The notes under the pieces: generated by a model
Database searches by the model: none
What the model saw: only the letters and a program-made list of their open reading frames with translations
What the model was told of the DNA's origin: nothing
Position numbers and translations under genes: made by a program
Shown: in pieces, positions 11,650 to 28,310 of the stretch
Layout of the letters: every line of letters begins with the position of its first letter
Position numbering within the stretch: position 1 is the stretch's first letter
Source of the DNA: Candidatus Magnetaquicoccus inordinatus
Lineage (GTDB): Bacteria > Pseudomonadota > Magnetococcia > Magnetococcales > Magnetaquicoccaceae
Reading direction: 5' to 3'
Assembly (NCBI RefSeq): GCF_004217665.1
Contig: NZ_RXIU01000013.1
Span: 1-32,746, forward strand
Length of the DNA stretch: 32,746 nt

Positions 11650-12129
11650 TTATTCTGTATCTGCTTTTCTGCGTCCAGCCTGCAGCTTTTCTCCCGCACC
11701 ACTGGCCAAGGCCAGTTGGCGTCGAGTGGCTGAATAGTTTGGGGCGACCAACGGAAAATCTTTCGGCAATCCAAACACCGCCAAATAGGTCGGAATATCG
11801 ATGCGATGGGTTTTGGTCAAATGGCCGCGTATCGCCTTGCCCTGTTTGCCACAGATCAAACAGGTCACACTCTCCGCTGTTACCGCCTGTTCCAGAGGAA
11901 CCACCGGTTGCCAGCGACCTGGCGGCAACGCCAGCTCCGCAACCTCTGACTCCTCCGGTCCCTGCTCCAGCTCCTCCTCTTCCTGCTCTGAGGCTGCAAC
12001 CCTGGCCAAGGCGCGGTAGACCACACCTATCATCCGCTCCACATCTTCAGGAGTGGCCGTCGGCTGTGCTGCATAAGCAGCAACAATCCGCGCTGTGCTT
12101 TTGAGCAGAATATATTTCATAACATCCAT
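11650..12129 (-). CDS. MucR/Ros family zinc-finger transcriptional regulator
   Basis: The C-terminal part has the Ros/MucR zinc finger, C-x2-C-x9-H-x4-H in CLICGKQGKAIRGHLTKTH, followed by the family's YLAVFGLPKDFPLVAPNYSATRR block. The N-terminal helix (STARIVAAYAAQP) is also typical. An acidic linker (EEEELEQGPEESE) separates the two, longer than in classic MucR. These proteins are DNA-binding regulators of surface polysaccharide, motility and virulence genes. ATGs at 12129 and 12120 are both possible; neither has a strong ribosome site. It lies 33 bases downstream of the pilin gene on the same strand. Confidence 0.88.
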   Translation of the reverse strand: MDVMKYILLKSTARIVAAYAAQPTATPEDVERMIGVVYRALARVAASEQEEEELEQGPEESEVAELALPPGRWQPVVPLEQAVTAESVTCLICGKQGKAIRGHLTKTHRIDIPTYLAVFGLPKDFPLVAPNYSATRRQLALASGAGEKLQAGRRKADTE

Positions 12130-12162
12130 TGTCGACAAACAAAATGAATTATCGTAACTTTT

Positions 12163-12588
12163 CTATTTGCAGTTGCTTGGTACATAGCGTGGTTCCAAGG
12201 TGCTGGTGCAGCCCCAGAGGATGCTGCCGCCATTTTCACTACCAGTCAAGGTAACCGTTTTACCAGCCAGGGTCGGATCAACACTATTGAAAGCAATCGC
12301 AATGCTGTTATTGCTGACCGTGACCGAGGCGACATGATTGCCGGTAATCATGTTGGCGGCGGCCAATCCTGCTGCCGCATTATCGGTCGGCCAGTTGGAG
12401 TTGCTCAACCGATACTCAGTGACTGCCTGTTTGCTTCCGGAAGAGAGATCCAAGGCATCTTTCACTTTGTTGCGCACGGTATAATTTTTGTAGCTCGGGA
12501 TGGCTACAGCCGCCAAAATTACCATAACGGCAATAATAATCATCAGTTCAATCAAGGTGAATCCACTGTGCAGCCTTTTTTTAGGCAT
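12163..12588 (-). CDS. Type IVa pilin-like protein
   Basis: A 141-residue prepilin with the leader MPKKRLHSG cut before FTLIELM (methylated Phe, Glu5), then a long hydrophobic helix (IIIAVMVILAAVAIPSY) and a globular domain. Two cysteines near the C-terminus (WGC...SNCK) fit the disulfide-bounded D-region of major pilins. AGGAGA lies about 8 bases before the ATG. A sigma-54-type promoter lies upstream. No assembly genes (pilB, pilC, pilD) are nearby, so it is a standalone pilin locus. It could be a minor pilin, but size and composition favour a major-type subunit. Confidence 0.9.
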   Translation of the reverse strand: MPKKRLHSGFTLIELMIIIAVMVILAAVAIPSYKNYTVRNKVKDALDLSSGSKQAVTEYRLSNSNWPTDNAAAGLAAANMITGNHVASVTVSNNSIAIAFNSVDPTLAGKTVTLTGSENGGSILWGCTSTLEPRYVPSNCK

Positions 12589-12857: not shown

Positions 12858-13079
12858 TCAGCGCACGACCACCAATGTATAATGGGGGCCCTCTTCCATG
12901 ACACTCTCCACCCGCCATCCCTCTTCTTGCACGGAACGGGGAATGTTAGCCAACGGTTCGCCCCCATTCAGACGAATGGTCAAGCGACTCCCTGGTGAGA
13001 GGGTTTCCAAACGCAGTTTGACCAGTACGAAGGTCATGGGACATACTTCATGGGTGATGTCAAGAAAGGATTCTGTCAC
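12858..13079 (-). CDS. TusA/SirA-family sulfur carrier-like protein
   Basis: A 73-residue protein of the TusA (SirA-like) fold: DITHEVCPMTFVLVKLRLE carries the conserved N-terminal cysteine (Cys13) and first proline, followed by SRLTIRLNGGEPLANIPRS and GW. The canonical CPxP is CPMT here. TusA-like proteins relay persulfide sulfur. It starts at a GTG that overlaps the upstream E1-like stop by one base (TAGTG), so it is coupled to that gene. As last gene of the rrf2-E1-cysK-E1 cluster it probably handles sulfur for that pathway, which is inference. Confidence 0.85.
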   Translation of the reverse strand: MTESFLDITHEVCPMTFVLVKLRLETLSPGSRLTIRLNGGEPLANIPRSVQEEGWRVESVMEEGPHYTLVVVR

Positions 13080-13828
13080 TACCGATCACTCGCACACACG
13101 GGACAAGAAGAAATTTTCTGTACTGCCAGACTCTGGTAACTGCTCTGTTCAGGAAGCAGAAGCAAACAGTTGTGCCACAAGGCAGAGGAGTGGCCAAGCA
13201 GGCTGCGCAGTGTCTCCATGGCCAACAGGGAGCCTATGGCCCCTCGCGCCACATGCAGCAATAGTGGATCTGCAGCAGCTCTTCCTTGTAGATGCTGTTG
13301 TGCGCTTTGCGCCACACAGTGCAAGCAGGCCGCTCCACTTGCGCTGTCTGCTGCGGCGCCTGCTGCCAGCAGCGCCTCTGGTTGTTGCCAACCTGCCAGA
13401 AGAGGACGTTTGACAGTAAATGCCGCTTGATTGAGAAGCTCTCGCAAGCTGGTCTTGCCCTCGGCAAGAACGGTCATCTGCACCGCAAGCAGCAGCGCTG
13501 TCGCCTCCTCAAGAGAGGCAGGTGGTGCCAAAGCCACCGTTGTGACCTGCGGATTCAGATCACGCACCATGGCACAGAGCCAATCACTGCCTGAGCTGGC
13601 CAATACCAGCAAACGGCCCACGCCAGCTCCAGCCAGGTATAAGGCCAACGGTATCGCCATCGGACCACAGCCAAAAAGGGCTACCGTTGCTTGATTCAGT
13701 GTGCGTTGTCCCCGTCCACCCACCCCCGGCAAAATAATCTGACGGGAATAACGCTCCATCCACTCTCGCTCATCCGCCTCAGTGCTCTCCTTAGTCTCGG
13801 CCAACAGCTCTGTAGGGCAGTGGCTCAT
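13079..13828 (-). CDS. E1-like (ThiF/HesA fold) protein with a lost ATP site
   Basis: A 249-residue protein. It has the N-terminal RYSRQIILPGVGGRGQ arm of MoeB/ThiF proteins (Arg26, Arg29), then a Rossmann start reading FGCGPMAIP instead of GxGGLG. The whole VDxDxVxxSNLxRQ segment is missing: after LLVLASSG the sequence goes straight to DWLCAMVRDLNP. No catalytic cysteine segment is evident. Both zinc pairs (Cys168/Cys171 and Cys242/Cys245) and the ARGAIGSLLAMETLRSLLG segment remain. It is therefore unlikely to adenylate alone and may be a partner subunit of the intact E1-like protein two genes upstream. It overlaps cysK as ATGA. Confidence 0.8.
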   Translation of the reverse strand: MSHCPTELLAETKESTEADEREWMERYSRQIILPGVGGRGQRTLNQATVALFGCGPMAIPLALYLAGAGVGRLLVLASSGSDWLCAMVRDLNPQVTTVALAPPASLEEATALLLAVQMTVLAEGKTSLRELLNQAAFTVKRPLLAGWQQPEALLAAGAAADSASGAACLHCVAQSAQQHLQGRAAADPLLLHVARGAIGSLLAMETLRSLLGHSSALWHNCLLLLPEQSSYQSLAVQKISSCPVCASDR

Positions 13829-14766
13829 GCCTCATCCCGAAAGAGTTCAGTCGACAGATAGCGTTCGGCAAAATCTGGCAATAAAGCCACAATACGGGTG
13901 CTGGCGAGGGCTCTTTCCGGATGATCACGCAGCCATTGCAGCGCCGCCGCCAAGACCGCTCCCGAAGAGATGCCACAACAAATTCCTTCCAAACGGGCGC
14001 AATCGCGCATCATCTTCTGCGCCTCGCCATCCTCCACCCGGATCACACTGCTGATGAGGGAGGTGTCCAAAACCTGTGGAACAAAGCCGGCACCAATGCC
14101 CTGGATGTTGTGATGCCCAGGGGTTCCACCAGACAAAACAGGTGAGTTGTCTGGTTCCACCGCTATGATTTGGATTTGTGGCAAATGCGCGCGCAACGCT
14201 TTGCCAATGCCACTCAATGAACCACCTGTGCCGACACCCGCCACCAGCACATCCAATTTTCCATCGGTATCTTGCAAGATCTCTTGGGCTGTGCTGTCGG
14301 CATGGATCTGCGGATTGATGGGATTGATAAACTGATTGGGCATAAAACTGTTTTTCTCTTTGCGCATGATTTTTTTGGCCTGGTCGATGGCACCCCGCAT
14401 CCCTTCGGCAGCAGGGGTTAAAACCAGTTCTGCACCCATCAAACGCAACAGATTGCGTCGTTCCAGAGACATGGAGTCGGGCATGGTCAAAATCAAACGC
14501 AAGCCCTGTGCAGCACAAACACAGGCTAAAGCAATGCCAGTATTGCCGGAGGTGGGTTCGATGATGACGGTATCTTTGCGAATCTGACCCGCTTTGCGCC
14601 CAGCTTCGATCATTGCCAGACCAATACGATCTTTCATCGAGGTGGTGGGATTGAAAAACTCCAATTTGGCCAACAGTTCGCAGGGCAGATCTCCGCTCAG
14701 GCGATTGATGCGGACCAGCGGGGTGCGACCAATGGTGGCGGTAATATCGGGATAGATGGCGGCCAT
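13825..14766 (-). CDS. Cysteine synthase family protein
   Basis: A 313-residue fold-type II PLP enzyme that would form cysteine from an activated serine and a sulfur donor. It shows the PLP lysine in FFNPTTSMKDRIG, the PTSGNTGIAL substrate loop, GVGTGGSLSGIGK for phosphate binding, and GISSGAVLAA. Canonical CysK has SVKDR where this has SMKDR, and CysM-type enzymes are equally compatible. It sits between two E1-like genes, so its sulfur donor could be a carrier-protein thiocarboxylate as in mycobacterial CysM/CysO, rather than free sulfide. Whether O-acetylserine or O-phosphoserine is used cannot be read off. Confidence 0.9.
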   Translation of the reverse strand: MAAIYPDITATIGRTPLVRINRLSGDLPCELLAKLEFFNPTTSMKDRIGLAMIEAGRKAGQIRKDTVIIEPTSGNTGIALACVCAAQGLRLILTMPDSMSLERRNLLRLMGAELVLTPAAEGMRGAIDQAKKIMRKEKNSFMPNQFINPINPQIHADSTAQEILQDTDGKLDVLVAGVGTGGSLSGIGKALRAHLPQIQIIAVEPDNSPVLSGGTPGHHNIQGIGAGFVPQVLDTSLISSVIRVEDGEAQKMMRDCARLEGICCGISSGAVLAAALQWLRDHPERALASTRIVALLPDFAERYLSTELFRDEA

Positions 14767-14782
14767 GGCATGCTTTGTCTGT

Positions 14783-15487
14783 TCAGGTAAGAGATCCGGA
14801 GGCCAGTTGGCAGACCGGACAAGTTGGATGGACCTTCCATGTTACGATGCGACGCCGCGATGATTCAAGGTCTATCGTCAACAATCGACCCTGTAATGGT
14901 TCACCGACGCCTCGCAGCCATTTGCTGGCCTCCAAAGCCATCAGCCAGCCCACCTCTCCCACCAAGGCTCCCCATACCCCTTCACTGCGGCAACTGCCCT
15001 CTTGCGGGGGAGGGGTGTCGAACAGACAGCGTAAGCAGGGTTGGCCGCCCGGAGGTATAAAACAGAGCTGTCCGCGCAAGCCAATGGCTGCTCCATGCAC
15101 CAAAGGAATGGCATCGAGCACAGCCGCATCGTTGGCAGCAAAACGGCTGCAAAAATTGTCGGTGCCATCAATGAGCAGATCATAACCACTGGCTCTGGCA
15201 GCAATACTCTCCCGGGTTTGCAGACGCTCTGCATGGATCTCTATCTGCAGGGCGGGATACAATTGCTGCAGGCGCTCTGCCGCCTGAGCCACCTTGGCTT
15301 TGCCAAGATCGCGGACACGATACAAAATCTGCCGGTGCAGGTTGGAGAGCGCCACTGTGTCATCATCCACAATGCCGAGACGCGCAATACCGCTCCCAGC
15401 CAAGGCCCAGGCCACTGCCGAACCGAGCCCCCCTGCACCTAAAAGCAACACACTGCCCTTGGTCTCTGTTTCTGGAGAGTCGTGCAC
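14783..15487 (-). CDS. HesA/MoeB/ThiF-family adenylyltransferase (intact ATP site, no N-terminal arm)
   Basis: A 234-residue E1-like enzyme. Visible: LLLGAGGLGSA (nucleotide loop, 15-23), VDDDTVALSNLHRQIL (Asp41/Asp43, Asn49, Arg52, Gln53), Lys65, IDGTDNF, zinc pairs CLRC (151/154) and CPVC (223/226), and GSCRSEGVWGALVGEVG with the candidate catalytic Cys166. Such enzymes adenylate the C-terminal glycine of ThiS/MoaD-like carriers. It begins almost directly at the first Rossmann strand and lacks the RYxRQ arm normally preceding it. The start is a GTG 11 bases after the rrf2 stop; no ATG, GTG or TTG further upstream in frame would restore the arm. Confidence 0.9.
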   Translation of the reverse strand: MHDSPETETKGSVLLLGAGGLGSAVAWALAGSGIARLGIVDDDTVALSNLHRQILYRVRDLGKAKVAQAAERLQQLYPALQIEIHAERLQTRESIAARASGYDLLIDGTDNFCSRFAANDAAVLDAIPLVHGAAIGLRGQLCFIPPGGQPCLRCLFDTPPPQEGSCRSEGVWGALVGEVGWLMALEASKWLRGVGEPLQGRLLTIDLESSRRRIVTWKVHPTCPVCQLASGSLT

Positions 15488-15498
15488 CAGGGCAATGC

Positions 15499-15960
15499 TT
15501 AAATAGAATAGGTCATGCGACTGTAGGCTTCGCTGGGAATCCCCTTGCGGAAGGCGCGTGAGGTCAACTCTTCAATGGTGATGTTGTCCATCATGCGCAA
15601 AATCTCTTCCTGAAACTCCAACCAAAGCGGTTGTACCACCTGATGTCCAATAGGTCCAGAGGTGATCCGCTCCGTATCCAGCAGCTCATCATCCTGATTC
15701 ATCTCCATTACCACCCGCGCCACATCACCGACACATATTTTGGAGCGCTCACGACCCAGCAAATAGCCTCCACGCGGTCCACGTATACCCTTGAGGATTC
15801 CTGCGCGCACCAGGCGCTGCATGACCTGCTCCAGATAACGTTGGGGAACACCTTGTCGACTGGTAACATCCCGGATCTGAACCGGTTCACCACCAGAATT
15901 GTAGGCAATATCTACAACAGCCTCAATCGCATACAGCAGCTTTTTGGAAAATTTCAACAT
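15499..15960 (-). CDS. Rrf2-family transcriptional regulator (CymR-like context)
   Basis: A 153-residue winged-helix regulator: MLKFSKKLLYAIEAVVDIA, then VTSRQGVPQRYLEQVMQRLVRAGILKGIRGPRGGYLLGR (recognition helix and wing), then GDVARVV. It has a single cysteine and lacks the three-Cys [2Fe-2S] cluster site of IscR. Being first in a cysteine-synthase cluster suggests a CymR-like sulfur regulator, which in Bacillus works in complex with CysK. The ATG at 15960 fits the family start; an ATG at 16017 would add 19 residues unlike the family. Confidence 0.88.
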   Translation of the reverse strand: MLKFSKKLLYAIEAVVDIAYNSGGEPVQIRDVTSRQGVPQRYLEQVMQRLVRAGILKGIRGPRGGYLLGRERSKICVGDVARVVMEMNQDDELLDTERITSGPIGHQVVQPLWLEFQEEILRMMDNITIEELTSRAFRKGIPSEAYSRMTYSI

Positions 15961-15995
15961 GGATTCCGTGCCTTGTGCTAGGGGTAAAACAGCCA

Positions 15996-16012
15996 CAGGC
16001 CCTCCTGGCCTG
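15996..16012. promoter_or_regulatory. Short inverted repeat before rrf2
   Basis: CAGGCC and GGCCTG form 6-bp arms around five bases between the coaBC stop (16028) and the rrf2 ATG (15960). On the minus strand a TTTT follows four bases later, so it could be a weak terminator for coaBC or an autoregulatory operator of the Rrf2 protein. Confidence 0.35.
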
Positions 16013-16027
16013 ATCATAATAGCTTGT

Positions 16028-17290
16028 TTACAAACGATTTTGCAGTGTCTGCACCAACCGTTCGCCGATCTCTTCTTTGGCCAGCAACGGCCATATCTCC
16101 TGCTGACCCGAGCGATGCAACAGAGTGACCTGATTGGTCAGACTGCCAAAAGCGCAACCGGGAGCCAGCACATTGTTGAGCAATAATAAATCACAACCTT
16201 TGCGCGCCAATTTTTCCTTGGCCAAAGGCACAAGCTGTGCGGCTGCATCCTCCGTCTCCGCCGTTTCGGCGGCAAATCCAACCAACAGGGGACGCGCTCG
16301 ATTTTTTTGTGCCAGGCGATTGGCTCTCTCTCCCAAGGCCAGCAAAATATCTGGATTTTGCGTCAGCTTGAGTGACAACTCCCCATCCAGCTCTTTTTTG
16401 ATTTTGCTGGCCCGACGGCTGGCCGGGCGATAATCTGCCACTGCCGCTGTCAAAATGGCACAACTGAGCTGCTGTCCAGGTCGCGTCCATTTGTCCCATT
16501 GCTGCAAAGTGGCCTCATACATCTCCTGTGCTGACTCTACCGCAAGTGCTTCTGCACCCCAGGGAGGAGCCATCTCCACAGCTCCATGAATCAGGGTAAC
16601 CTCCGCTCCCGCCCGCAATGCAGCCTGTGCAATGGCCCAGCCCATACGGCCACTGGAACGGTTTGAGATATAACGGACCGGATCCAACTCTTCTCGCGTC
16701 GGACCGGCTGTAAGCAATATGCGATGGCCTAACAATATTTTAGGCGACAACAGGCGCCGACCTGCTTCCAGTATGCGTTCTGCCTCTGCCATCCGGCCCA
16801 CACCCTGTTCACCACACGCCAAGGCACCACTCTCTGGGCCAACCAACAGCAAGCCATCCGCTTGCAGTTGAGAAATGTTACGTTGTGTTGCGGGATGTTG
16901 CCACATGCCACTGTTCATCGCTGGGGCCAGCACAATCGGTTTGCGTCGTACCAAAGCCAACGCCGACAACAGATCATCCGCCAAGCCACTGGCCAACTTG
17001 GCTATCCGATTGGCTGTTGCCGGCGCAATAATCAACAGATCGGCCTCTTGTGCCAAACGGATATGATCCATGCCATCGGCAGCTTGCGGAGTAAACAGAT
17101 CCTGGTAGACCGGATGTCCCGCCAGCGCCTGTACAGTCAGAGGGGTGACAAATTGTGTGGCTGAGGCAGTGAGCACTGGCCATACCCGTGCTCCTTGTTC
17201 CCGCAATAAACGTATCAACTCCAACGTTTTGTAGGCTGCTATTCCGCCCCCAAAGGCCACGACTACTGTTTTGTTTGCCCAAAAAGCCAC
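16028..17290 (-). CDS. coaBC: Bifunctional phosphopantothenoylcysteine synthetase/decarboxylase
   Basis: The N-terminal half is the FMN-dependent decarboxylase CoaC (GGGIAAYKTLELIRLL, PATANRIAKLASGLADDLL, PAMNSGMW, and catalytic Cys in GALACGEQGVGRM). The C-terminal half is the ligase CoaB (LLTAGPTREELDPVRYISNRSSGRMG, TAAVADYRP, GFAAET). It makes 4'-phosphopantetheine, downstream of PanB/C/D in the same pathway. The start is set at GTG 17290 because GGAGGAAGA lies 9 bases upstream, giving 420 residues. A TTG at 17317 would place that ribosome site inside the gene. Confidence 0.95.
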   Translation of the reverse strand: MAFWANKTVVVAFGGGIAAYKTLELIRLLREQGARVWPVLTASATQFVTPLTVQALAGHPVYQDLFTPQAADGMDHIRLAQEADLLIIAPATANRIAKLASGLADDLLSALALVRRKPIVLAPAMNSGMWQHPATQRNISQLQADGLLLVGPESGALACGEQGVGRMAEAERILEAGRRLLSPKILLGHRILLTAGPTREELDPVRYISNRSSGRMGWAIAQAALRAGAEVTLIHGAVEMAPPWGAEALAVESAQEMYEATLQQWDKWTRPGQQLSCAILTAAVADYRPASRRASKIKKELDGELSLKLTQNPDILLALGERANRLAQKNRARPLLVGFAAETAETEDAAAQLVPLAKEKLARKGCDLLLLNNVLAPGCAFGSLTNQVTLLHRSGQQEIWPLLAKEEIGERLVQTLQNRL

Positions 17291-17326
17291 CGCACTCTTC
17301 CTCCGCTGCTGCTGCAAGAGGTTCCG

Positions 17327-26182: not shown

Positions 26183-26232
26183 ATCGTGGGTAGCATCGTG
26201 GGTAGGCTGATCGTGGGTAGCATCGTGGGTAG
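26183..26232 (+). repeat. Four direct repeats of ATCGTGGGTAG before the integrase
   Basis: Perfect 11-bp copies start at 26183, 26195, 26210 and 26222 (intervals 12, 15 and 12). They lie between the tRNA end and the integrase ATG, inside the predicted integrase leader. The position suits integrase arm-type or excisionase sites that also allow autoregulation; this role is inferred. Confidence 0.8.
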
Positions 26233-26251
26233 ACGGAAGAGGGGGCAGGAT

Positions 26252-27433
26252 ATGGCCAGAAAACCACCAGGGCAATTGACGGCACTAAAGGTCACCAAGA
26301 CCCGCACACCAGGATTGTACGGCGACGGCGGCAACCTTTGGTTGCAGGTGACCAGTCAGGCGGCCAAATCATGGGTACTACGCTACACGCTCAGGGGTAA
26401 GAATCGGGAAATGGGGCTGGGCAGTGTGCAGGATGTTTCTTTGGAGGAGGCCAGAACCAAAGCGGCCAAAGCCAGGAAGTTACTAATAGAGAGGGTAGAC
26501 CCCATTGTAGACCGGGACATTGAGCGGCAAAAGGCGGCACCCGCCAAGTCATTCAAGCAATGTGCTGATGAGTTCATCGAGGCGAACAAAGCCGGATGGA
26601 GCAATACCAAACATGCGGCGCAGTGGGCCAGTACCTTGGAGACATACGCCTATCCGATCATCGGGACCATGCCAGTCTCTGAGGTAACTACCGATCACGT
26701 GCTGCAGATTCTGAACCCTATCTGGCAGGAGAAGCCAGAAACGGCATCAAGGGTAAAGGGACGGATTGAGTCTGTCTTGAGCATGGCAACTGTGCGAGGT
26801 TATCGGATCGGGGAGAATCCAGCCAGATGGAAAGGGCATCTTGACCAGTTATTGCCAGCAAAGGTCAAAGTGGCCAAGGTGGAGCATCATGCAGCGTTGC
26901 CTTATGCGGATGTGTCGGGGTTTATGCGTGCCCTTGCACAACAAGAGGGTGTTGCAGCGTTGGCTTTGGCGTTTTGCATCCTGACTGCTACCAGGACCAG
27001 CGAGACGTTGGGGGCGGTGTGGGGAGAGATAGATTTTGCGGCCAAGGTGTGGGCCATTCCAGGCGACAGGATGAAAGCGGGCAGGGAACATAGGGTGCCA
27101 TTGAGTGACCAAGCCATGACGGTTCTGGAGCGGATGCAGGAGCAACGGCAACCGGATTATATATTCCCTGGCATGCGGGCAGGTAGACCGCTTTCCAATA
27201 TGGCATTGCTTATGACGTTGCGGCGCATGGAGCGAGGAGACCTAACAACGCATGGGTTTAGATCGACCTTCCGAGACTGGGCGGCAGAGACAACAGGCTA
27301 TCCGAACGAAGTTTGCGAGATGGCGCTTGCTCATGATGTGAAAGGCGTTGAGGGTGCATATCGTCGGGGGGATCTGTTTGAGAAGCGGCGGCAATTGATG
27401 GCTGATTGGGGACGGTACTGTGATGGAAAGTGA
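26252..27433 (+). CDS. Tyrosine recombinase/integrase (P4 type)
   Basis: A 393-residue integrase. The N-terminal region (LTALKVTKTRTPGLYGDGGNLWLQV) is the arm-binding domain found in P4-like and island integrases; a core-binding domain follows (about 100-190). The catalytic set is complete: Arg248 (TATRTSE), a lysine near 275, His334 and Arg337 (THGFRSTFRDW), His361 (ALAHDV) and Tyr370 (GAYRR). The ATG at 26252 follows GGCAGGA; the frame is open back to 26186 but that part is the repeat array. Being next to tRNA-Ser, it should catalyse integration there. Confidence 0.95.
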   Translation: MARKPPGQLTALKVTKTRTPGLYGDGGNLWLQVTSQAAKSWVLRYTLRGKNREMGLGSVQDVSLEEARTKAAKARKLLIERVDPIVDRDIERQKAAPAKSFKQCADEFIEANKAGWSNTKHAAQWASTLETYAYPIIGTMPVSEVTTDHVLQILNPIWQEKPETASRVKGRIESVLSMATVRGYRIGENPARWKGHLDQLLPAKVKVAKVEHHAALPYADVSGFMRALAQQEGVAALALAFCILTATRTSETLGAVWGEIDFAAKVWAIPGDRMKAGREHRVPLSDQAMTVLERMQEQRQPDYIFPGMRAGRPLSNMALLMTLRRMERGDLTTHGFRSTFRDWAAETTGYPNEVCEMALAHDVKGVEGAYRRGDLFEKRRQLMADWGRYCDGK

Positions 27434-28310
27434 TCTGCAGGCAAAAAAAATTGGCGCATCATACTGGATGCAGATTCATGGCGCATGCAATTTGTTCCTC
27501 TTTGGCCAGCAAGTGGAGATGGCGCTTGCAACTATTGGCCGAATCAATCAACTGATGCAGTGTGTTGACAGCGAACCAAACAAACCATGGTGCAGAGATG
27601 AGGCATACGGCATGCACAGGCGCATGGTGGATCTGAGGCCGTTCATGCTGTTGGCAGCAAGGAATGGGCACGTTCCATTTCATGGGCTGATAGATACCTT
27701 GCGGGGGTTTGGCTTCCGTTTCGGCGATGGCAATAAAGAAGATCACGAGCAAGGGCGCGAATGGGGATCTGTGTTTGAGGCTCGAATCAAGATTGCAATC
27801 GATGATGGTAAGGCAAAAGATTCTGATCTTCCCGATAGCTTGATCTGTAATTTTGCGGATCTGGCGCAACTTGCTTCCCCTGGTCATTTTCTAGAATGGG
27901 TATCTGAATGGCGCGAGGAGTCTGCACCGTCACCACCGGAGCATGCGAACGGGCATAATGAACCCCCTCTGGCTGGAACAGGGCAGGCGGCAGCGAGTGG
28001 TGACCCTTGGAGCTTTCTGCCAGAAAATGAGCCATATCGAACGCATGTCATTGCCATATGCCAGGGGGCGAAGTGGGCAACAGAGAACCAAAATGCACAT
28101 GAAGAAAATCTGCTACACGGGAAAACACTCTCTGCAAACAGAGTTGCCGCCGTGATACTGAAATATCCAGGTCAGTGGTGGGATGAGGAGAAAATGGGGA
28201 AGGACGATCCACCAGCCCATAAGAAAGTGGCAGAATGGGTGAGCAAATGGCTGCAGGCCGGACGGCCAGACCCTGACACGATAAAATTACCTTATAGCAT
28301 GGCAAAGTAA
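27423..28310 (+). CDS. Protein of unknown function, element-borne
   Basis: A 295-residue soluble protein, not recognised. The ATG overlaps the integrase stop by 11 bases, so the two are co-expressed. The N-terminal 140 residues look helical and rich in Met, Trp and charged residues; a Pro/Ala/Gly-rich hinge (about 170-200) precedes a second helical part with WSFLPENEPYRTH and YPGQWWDEEK. No nuclease, ATPase or DNA-binding motif was seen. No signal peptide or membrane segment. Confidence 0.75.
   Translation: MESDLQAKKIGASYWMQIHGACNLFLFGQQVEMALATIGRINQLMQCVDSEPNKPWCRDEAYGMHRRMVDLRPFMLLAARNGHVPFHGLIDTLRGFGFRFGDGNKEDHEQGREWGSVFEARIKIAIDDGKAKDSDLPDSLICNFADLAQLASPGHFLEWVSEWREESAPSPPEHANGHNEPPLAGTGQAAASGDPWSFLPENEPYRTHVIAICQGAKWATENQNAHEENLLHGKTLSANRVAAVILKYPGQWWDEEKMGKDDPPAHKKVAEWVSKWLQAGRPDPDTIKLPYSMAK

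Follow-up and report, generated by a model that had tools for sequence, protein, structure and literature searches.

Complementary distribution of the N-terminal arm and the ATP site over two E1-like proteins in a sulfur-transfer operon of the Magnetococcales

Can an E1-like enzyme be divided between two bacterial genes, one of which provides the adenosine triphosphate (ATP) site and the other the N-terminal arginine arm? The question is raised by the window analyzed here, a stretch of 32,746 nucleotides (nt) from Candidatus Magnetaquicoccus inordinatus (contig NZ_RXIU01000013.1; the genome is labelled G000), which carries two E1-like genes, termed E1a and E1b. The first-pass annotation of this DNA had proposed that they encode an obligate heterodimer with divided labour that evolved inside a sulfur cluster. 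In MoeB, the arm arginine is supplied by the partner protomer. Most ATP contacts in homodimeric MoeB come from one protomer, and a critical arginine near the N-terminus also touches the triphosphate (PMC9378703; here and below, publications are cited for the passages that address the point in question). The two genes were compared with those of 48 genomes of the class that holds the Magnetococcales, which are part of a phylum sample of 398 genomes. Judged from the sequences and from structure models, E1a and E1b probably form one asymmetric adenylyltransferase, in which E1b would be an inactive arm donor like SAE1 or APPBP1. The two genes and their decisive motifs are:

14783..15487, minus strand: E1a, armless active-type E1 (ThiF/MoeB-like), 234 amino acids, GTG start; PF00899 at 3.1e-58
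15422..15439, minus strand: nucleotide loop GAGGLG of E1a, residues 17-22; G17, G19, G20, L21, and G22 invariant in 37 E1a
15329..15346, minus strand: SNLHRQ of E1a, residues 48-53, with the equivalent of MoeB Arg73; S48, N49, L50, R52, and Q53 invariant in 37 E1a
13079..13828, minus strand: E1b, arm-bearing inactive-type E1, 249 amino acids; PF00899 at 1.5e-14 in two pieces
13739..13753, minus strand: arm RYSRQ of E1b, residues 26-30; R29 aligns with MoeB R14

The coordinates that had been annotated for both genes were correct; the strand had not been given. E1a contains the motifs GAGGLG, VDDDTVALSNLHRQ, DDD, SNLHRQ, CLRC, and CPVC and scored 197.2 bits against PF00899, compared with 54.2 bits in two pieces for E1b (cut-off 28.1 bits). 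An RYxRQ arm was found neither in the protein nor in any frame of the 210 nt upstream. The arm of other E1s typically lies 27 residues ahead of the P-loop, and the stop codon of the preceding rrf2 gene lies 19.7 codons ahead of the P-loop of E1a, so that the intergenic region has no room for an arm. Thus, the annotated state of E1a, an intact nucleotide site without an arm, was borne out, and an upstream start codon restoring the arm, which had been named as one of the possible objections, was searched for and not found upstream of E1a.

The same was true throughout the class. All 42 E1a lacked the arm (37, 3, and 2 proteins from successive surveys). The only arm-like motif upstream of 37 E1a was RYERE in another frame in G011, and an in-frame RxxR at the canonical spacing was present in 1 of 40 E1a, again in G011 and upstream of the start codon used, which we take as chance. 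As the split of arm and ATP site recurs across the class, it is not a chance event, and the 42 concordant cases also ruled out a misread start as the cause of the armless E1a.

E1b shows the reverse picture. As had been annotated, the arm is present and the GxGGLG loop and the SNLxRQ segment are gone; GCGPMA stands in place of the loop, and the motifs CLHC and CPVC are kept. Only R26, R29, Q41, L44, and G69 are invariant across 31 aligned E1b, which share 19–52% identity with the window protein. In the numbering of E. coli MoeB, which was used for all residue comparisons, R26 and R29 correspond to R11 and R14, and Q41 aligns with Q26 ahead of the P-loop, a residue kept in all 76 E1s of other groups. 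This comparison set was drawn from the best 80 of 586 confirmed loci, the other 4 of which belong to Magnetococcales; these are the nearest named relatives, and all of them are armless. R11 and R14 were each found in 36/36 E1b and 0/37 E1a, and in 76/76 and 75/76 E1s of other groups, respectively. R73, K86, and D130, which are named as active-site residues of MoeB (PMC12355090), were each present in 37/37 E1a and 76/76 other-group E1s, and in the alignment of 31 E1b (A1), R73 and D130 were retained in only 2 proteins each. Five further E1b found by profile searches (G021, G022, G025, G036, G040) were milder, with K86 in 4/5 and a G-x-G-A loop in 4/5. Neither E1a nor E1b combines arm and ATP site in one chain, as the MoeB/ThiF homodimers do; the arm resides on the inactive-type protein and the active-type protein is armless, which is the arrangement of SAE1-UBA2 and APPBP1-UBA3. 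The sequences show that arm and ATP site were gained and lost in a complementary way and that this pattern is conserved.

One of the E1b surveys sorted its candidates by the arm motif, and an E1b with a lost arm would be harder to find in this way. Motif-independent evidence comes from the profile searches and from open reading frames (ORFs) picked by phmmer without using the motif, 31 of 31 of which contain the arm. Two proteins were excluded from the E1b count, namely the MoeB of G026 with the loop GAGALA (L299) and a further E1 of G045 (L292). The possibility that E1b is a decaying pseudogene was ruled out by its presence in 41/48 genomes and by the invariance of R26 and R29 in the 31 aligned proteins. 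The two zinc pairs ascribed to both proteins exist in the window, but they are not a general trait, as the last cysteine is misplaced in 13/37 E1a and the C-terminal pair is gone in some E1b; in G012 and G039, the sequence is truncated by a contig end. PF00899 was the only domain found in either protein; length and Pfam matches gave no catalytic-cysteine or ubiquitin-fold domain. E1a and E1b stayed under the cut-off of every MoeB/ThiF model of NCBIfam among the matches listed (25 of 26 families for E1a), and for both, the best relatives with a solved structure are ThiF and MoeB of E. coli.

E1a was detected in 42 of the 48 class genomes and E1b, each time with its arm, in 41. Both genes were present in 39 genomes, only one in 5 (E1a in G005, G014, and G028; E1b in G022 and G040), and neither in 4 (G017, G018, G044, G047), which corresponds to a Fisher p of 0.002 if the relatedness of the genomes is ignored. 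The first-pass annotation had suggested a survey for co-occurrence of an armless and an arm-bearing E1, and its outcome agrees with the proposed pairing. With the E1a profile, E1a scored 303–368 bits and the separate MoeB of the class 155–221 bits, so that the two are readily separated; sorting by profile placed the proteins of G043 and G046 with E1a, together with six that a crude rule labels MoeB. When the bar was set at E 1e-67 or better to exclude MoeB, E1a-type matches were obtained in 42/398 genomes of the phylum, all within the class, and in 0/350 genomes outside it. Armless E1 pairs may nevertheless exist in other groups. A second, partial E1a-type copy of 248 bits without the P-loop part was seen in G036 (G036:C67:21175-21693).

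The two genes are members of a cluster with the order rrf2, E1a, cysK, E1b, tusA on the minus strand. Its other members are:

15499..16017, minus strand: rrf2, Rrf2-family regulator (IscR/CymR-like) heading the cluster; PF02082 at 2.9e-26
13825..14766, minus strand: cysK, cysteine synthase A; TIGR01139 with 401 bits, cut-off 351
12858..13079, minus strand: tusA, TusA-family sulfurtransferase with CPMT; PF01206 at 1.1e-15, 57.6 bits, cut-off 28.6

The genes cysK and E1b overlap by 4 bases, and the first base of tusA is the last base of E1b. Among the relatives listed, the active-site motif of TusA reads CPMT or CPIT, and 17 of the 41 class genomes with E1b encode it as a fusion to TusA. E1a and E1b share an operon in 33 of the 39 genomes having both, and in G002 the operon is split by a contig break. 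E1b was kept in spite of being unlinked from E1a in five genomes (G020, G021, G025, G031, G036), where it lies on another contig without cysK in the 3–8 kilobases (kb) around it; two of these are E1b-TusA fusions. For G022, a location of E1b outside a cluster was ruled out, because the contig ends in a cysK fragment ahead of E1b and tusA follows E1b, the cluster being cut before E1a.

The start codons of E1a and E1b are in frame with each other, so that one read-through chain holds both. Reading from 15487 to 13082 on the minus strand, through stops, gave E1a, about 319 residues of out-of-frame cysK, and E1b. The modelling alignments A4 and A5 were dropped because E1b-only rows were placed onto E1a, and alignment A6, which retained 8 of the 30 A5 rows with E1a only, together with its 20 rows for E1b, was selected after tests and checked. 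AlphaFold2 modelled the window pair with a predicted local distance difference test score (pLDDT) that exceeded 90 over most of both E1 parts and stayed below 50 in nearly all of the linker. The predicted template modelling score (pTM) was 0.67, where a rough estimate is 0.59 for two well-placed parts and about 0.35–0.4 for parts not placed against each other. In the comparison with VIA-align, chains of UBA1, UBA6, or UBA7 matched over both parts in 36 of 50 rows listed (386–416 residues, 2.8–3.9 Å, Z 28.8–32.5), and the remaining 14 rows match one part. The modelled dimer thus matches these single-chain enzymes, in which the active and inactive domains follow each other in the opposite order, so that the match relies on pseudo-symmetry. 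A pseudo-symmetric E1a/E1b dimer is therefore supported by the window model.

Several observations weigh against a heterodimer with divided labour. G028, which is 99% complete, contains an armless E1a, cysK, and tusA (L092), and no E1b was found. E1b is also missing in G005 (96% complete, with a contig end just past E1a) and G014 (77% complete). Short E1b, for example those of G027, G034, and G038, end without the C-terminal zinc pair, and no gene for a ubiquitin-like carrier was found in the cluster. As to the models, in Foldseek's own alignment a UBA7 chain covers both parts of the window model, with a root-mean-square deviation of 24.9 Å, and the other 49 Foldseek rows listed are mostly single-domain. 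The model of the G027 pair reached a pTM of 0.56 with poor confidence for E1b, and only 2 of 50 rows listed span both parts (334 and 338 residues); its middle stretch, probably cysK, has a pLDDT of 70–80. The out-of-frame cysK linker is artificial, and as AlphaFold2 has seen many E1 dimers, the window model is partly prior knowledge. The models, one of two being supportive, favor an E1a/E1b dimer without proving it. Taken together, the division of labour in a heterodimer is backed by the complementary arm and ATP site, their conservation, and the window model, whereas the term "obligate" is unsupported because of G028, where the arm-bearing MoeB could be the partner of E1a.

How could the two proteins act together? 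By analogy with known E1s, we infer that the arm of E1b reaches the ATP site of E1a and that a TusA step follows. E1a would bind Mg-ATP together with the glycine at the C-terminus of a ubiquitin-like sulfur carrier, and E1b, having lost its own ATP site, would extend its arm with R26 and R29 to the triphosphate in E1a. TusA, encoded adjacently or fused to E1b, would then deliver persulfide sulfur to convert the carrier adenylate to the thiocarboxylate. In E. coli, TusA supplies the sulfur for the MoaD thiocarboxylate, a task done by the rhodanese domain in MOCS3, with which TusA shares no sequence homology (PMC5372717).

One alternative concerns only the product and not the heterodimer: after loading of the carrier with sulfur, the adjacent CysK might turn the thiocarboxylate into cysteine. 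We regard such a CysO-type route as possible, though rather doubtful. The position of cysK between both E1 genes is suggestive, and two operon types had been predicted by Iyer et al. in 2006, E1 with cysteine synthase and, separately, E1 with sulfur genes and SirA/TusA as a predicted rhodanese replacement (PMC1779556). MoeZR loads CysO in mycobacteria (PMC3227635), and a Prok-JAB peptidase was found in 28/31 genomes, including G000 (G000:C514:23372-23674, L335). However, the profile scores identify an ordinary cysK, below the cut-off for cysM, and the window cluster has no match to PF02597 or PF14464, the matches of G000 being located on C279 (PF02597) and C514 (PF14464). Hence, the combination typical of CysO-CysM, a carrier and a JAB gene beside E1 and cysteine synthase, is not present at the window cluster. 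The cluster differs from the operons predicted in 2006 in that its two E1 genes are built in opposite ways and a gene for ThiS/MoaD or JAB is lacking.

A carrier of the ThiS/MoaD type is encoded elsewhere in 20 of 21 genomes searched, and in G000 only a MoaD-type carrier was found. The E1-like set of G000 comprises, besides E1a and E1b, a canonical MoeB (C60) and, on C77, a third match, which we take for TcdA. By elimination, ThiS might be the carrier of E1a, a weak assignment, MoaD being the second candidate. ThiS and ThiG share one ORF with an internal GGG in the loci read of nine genomes (L117, L121, L126, L128, L130, L132-L135), and the end of ThiS would have to be freed there, as the GGG is internal to the common frame. 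ThiS stops three residues past GGG at L131 (G024). At L107 (G000:C279) and L109 (G006:C37), the MoaD-type carrier continues in frame into a domain read as MobB-like, with the GG inside; several other relatives have a MoaD with a free end at GG. The Prok-JAB peptidase is a candidate for freeing internal GG ends.

A second alternative denies the heterodimer itself. E1a might be an active armless homodimer and E1b a separate scaffold or TusA carrier that does not complete an ATP site. UBA5 is a homodimeric E1 that lacks the usual arm, G028 has E1a without E1b, and the frequent E1b-TusA fusion would also fit a protein that serves mainly as a docking platform. Nevertheless, a pure scaffold would have no reason to keep R26 and R29 fixed amid the drift of nearly all other positions, and the arm is found in none of the 42 E1a; we therefore consider this explanation unlikely.

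The origin of the two genes was addressed with phylogenetic trees. All 41 E1b formed one clade and all 37 E1a another (support 1.0 each). E1b was placed beside the class's own MoeB with a support of 0.92 (0.55 for the node with the single nearest MoeB; 0.99 for the same placement in a first tree with 15 of 36 E1b), and the deep nodes around E1a had supports of 0.0 and 0.16. As E1b branches beside MoeB and E1a is a separate lineage, they are not halves of one ancestral enzyme, and a split of one ancestral E1 was ruled out; judged by the trees, the pair unites two E1 lineages. With the separate lineages and the five genomes with E1b on a cysK-less stretch of another contig, the view that the pair evolved inside the sulfur cluster is not supported either.

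MoeB was itself affected by loss of the arm, which is missing in 7 of 38 MoeB examined. All 7 belong to one genus, in which 9 genomes have a MoeB and those of G008 and G013 keep the arm. The armless MoeB (L243, L245, L246, L247, L248, L250, L251 in G007, G009-G012, G015, G016) retain the ATP-site residues and form one clade with support 1.0, so that a single loss seems likely from the sequences. As the frame upstream in G007 reads RIDRN at the canonical place, this case is doubtful and six are clear. The MoeB gene of G009 adjoins a gene read as moaE-like. A role of E1b mainly as partner of the canonical MoeB, with the operon reflecting only common regulation with E1a, would fit its place in the trees and the armless MoeB of this genus, but is highly improbable, as 31/38 MoeB have their own arm and can do without a donor, unlike E1a, which would depend on one in every case. 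In addition, E1a and E1b share an operon in 33 of the 39 genomes having both.

Within the asymmetric adenylyltransferase, E1b may have a wider role. In the genomes with an armless MoeB, E1b is the only arm-bearing E1-like protein found by the searches, which suggests that it is able to serve MoeB as well as E1a in this genus. Tentatively, and with the odds slightly against it, E1b, often fused to TusA, could be a shared subunit giving arm and sulfur to E1a wherever present and to the armless MoeB in one genus. If this is true, a single inactive E1 would be common to two activating enzymes that act on two carriers.

UBA2 and UBA3 lack the arm, and eukaryotic E1s are thought to derive from symmetric MoeB-like dimers by losing one site. 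In canonical eukaryotic E1s the arm arginine is located on the inactive domain, and SAE1-UBA2 and APPBP1(NAE1)-UBA3, the subunit roles of which have been described (PMC12355090), resemble E1a/E1b in having an inactive domain with the arm arginine and an active domain with the ATP site (PMC9378703). In contrast to them, E1a/E1b lack a catalytic-cysteine or ubiquitin-fold domain, no E2 was seen, and the genes lie in a sulfur-transfer operon and arose separately, out of MoeB-type genes. MoeB and ThiF are similar in fold, ATP-site motifs, arm sequence, and zinc pairs, but one gene makes both halves, whereas here each of two E1 lineages contributes one gene, with the arm encoded by one and the ATP site by the other. 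The bacterial E1 BilD also pairs an inactive with an active adenylation domain (PMC11354881); it is a single chain with a Cys domain that activates the ubiquitin-like BilA, whereas E1a/E1b are two genes without a Cys domain and with a TusA fusion. The joining of adenylation and sulfur donation in one complex is shared by E1b-TusA and MoeZ/Uba4/MOCS3 (PMC5372717, PMC3227635); the latter are fused to rhodanese, whereas here the sulfur domain is TusA and is carried by the inactive subunit.

The active/inactive split of E1 is already known in eukaryotes and, within one chain, in BilD. New here are the E1b-TusA fusion, the armless MoeB in one genus, and the branching of E1b beside MoeB, and no bacterial two-gene E1 of this kind was found in the open-access literature of PubMed Central among the matches listed. 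The split apparently evolved separately from eukaryotic E1s, in a sulfur-transfer operon. A simple bacterial E1 with the same split and no conjugation machinery seen around it would be a clean second case for asking why symmetry is lost, and the class shows steps on the path, from arm and site together in MoeB to mild E1b with G-x-G-A, strongly decayed E1b, the TusA fusion, and the armless MoeB. A bacterial equivalent of MOCS3, in which TusA replaces rhodanese, is suggested as well.

Some further features of the window and of other loci were noted. At ten Nitrospirota and related loci (L168, L169, L172, L173, L175, L177, L180, L188, L196, L235), two E1 genes lie about 2.5–2.8 kb apart, and both have arm and P-loop. 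The window's rrf2 product scored under the cut-offs of the named models IscR and CymR. The gene coaBC (16028-17317, minus strand) adjoins rrf2 in the window and in most relatives' loci read. An integrase-like gene at 26186-27433 (plus strand) matched NF007246 with 147.6 bits, below the cut-off of that model, and the neighboring ORF at 27420-28310 had no NCBIfam match. On the other side of the cluster, at 11650-12138 and 12163-12588 (both minus strand), a ROS/MucR-family regulator (PF05443) adjoins a pilin-like ORF, which was recognized by eye from GFTLIELM close to its start.

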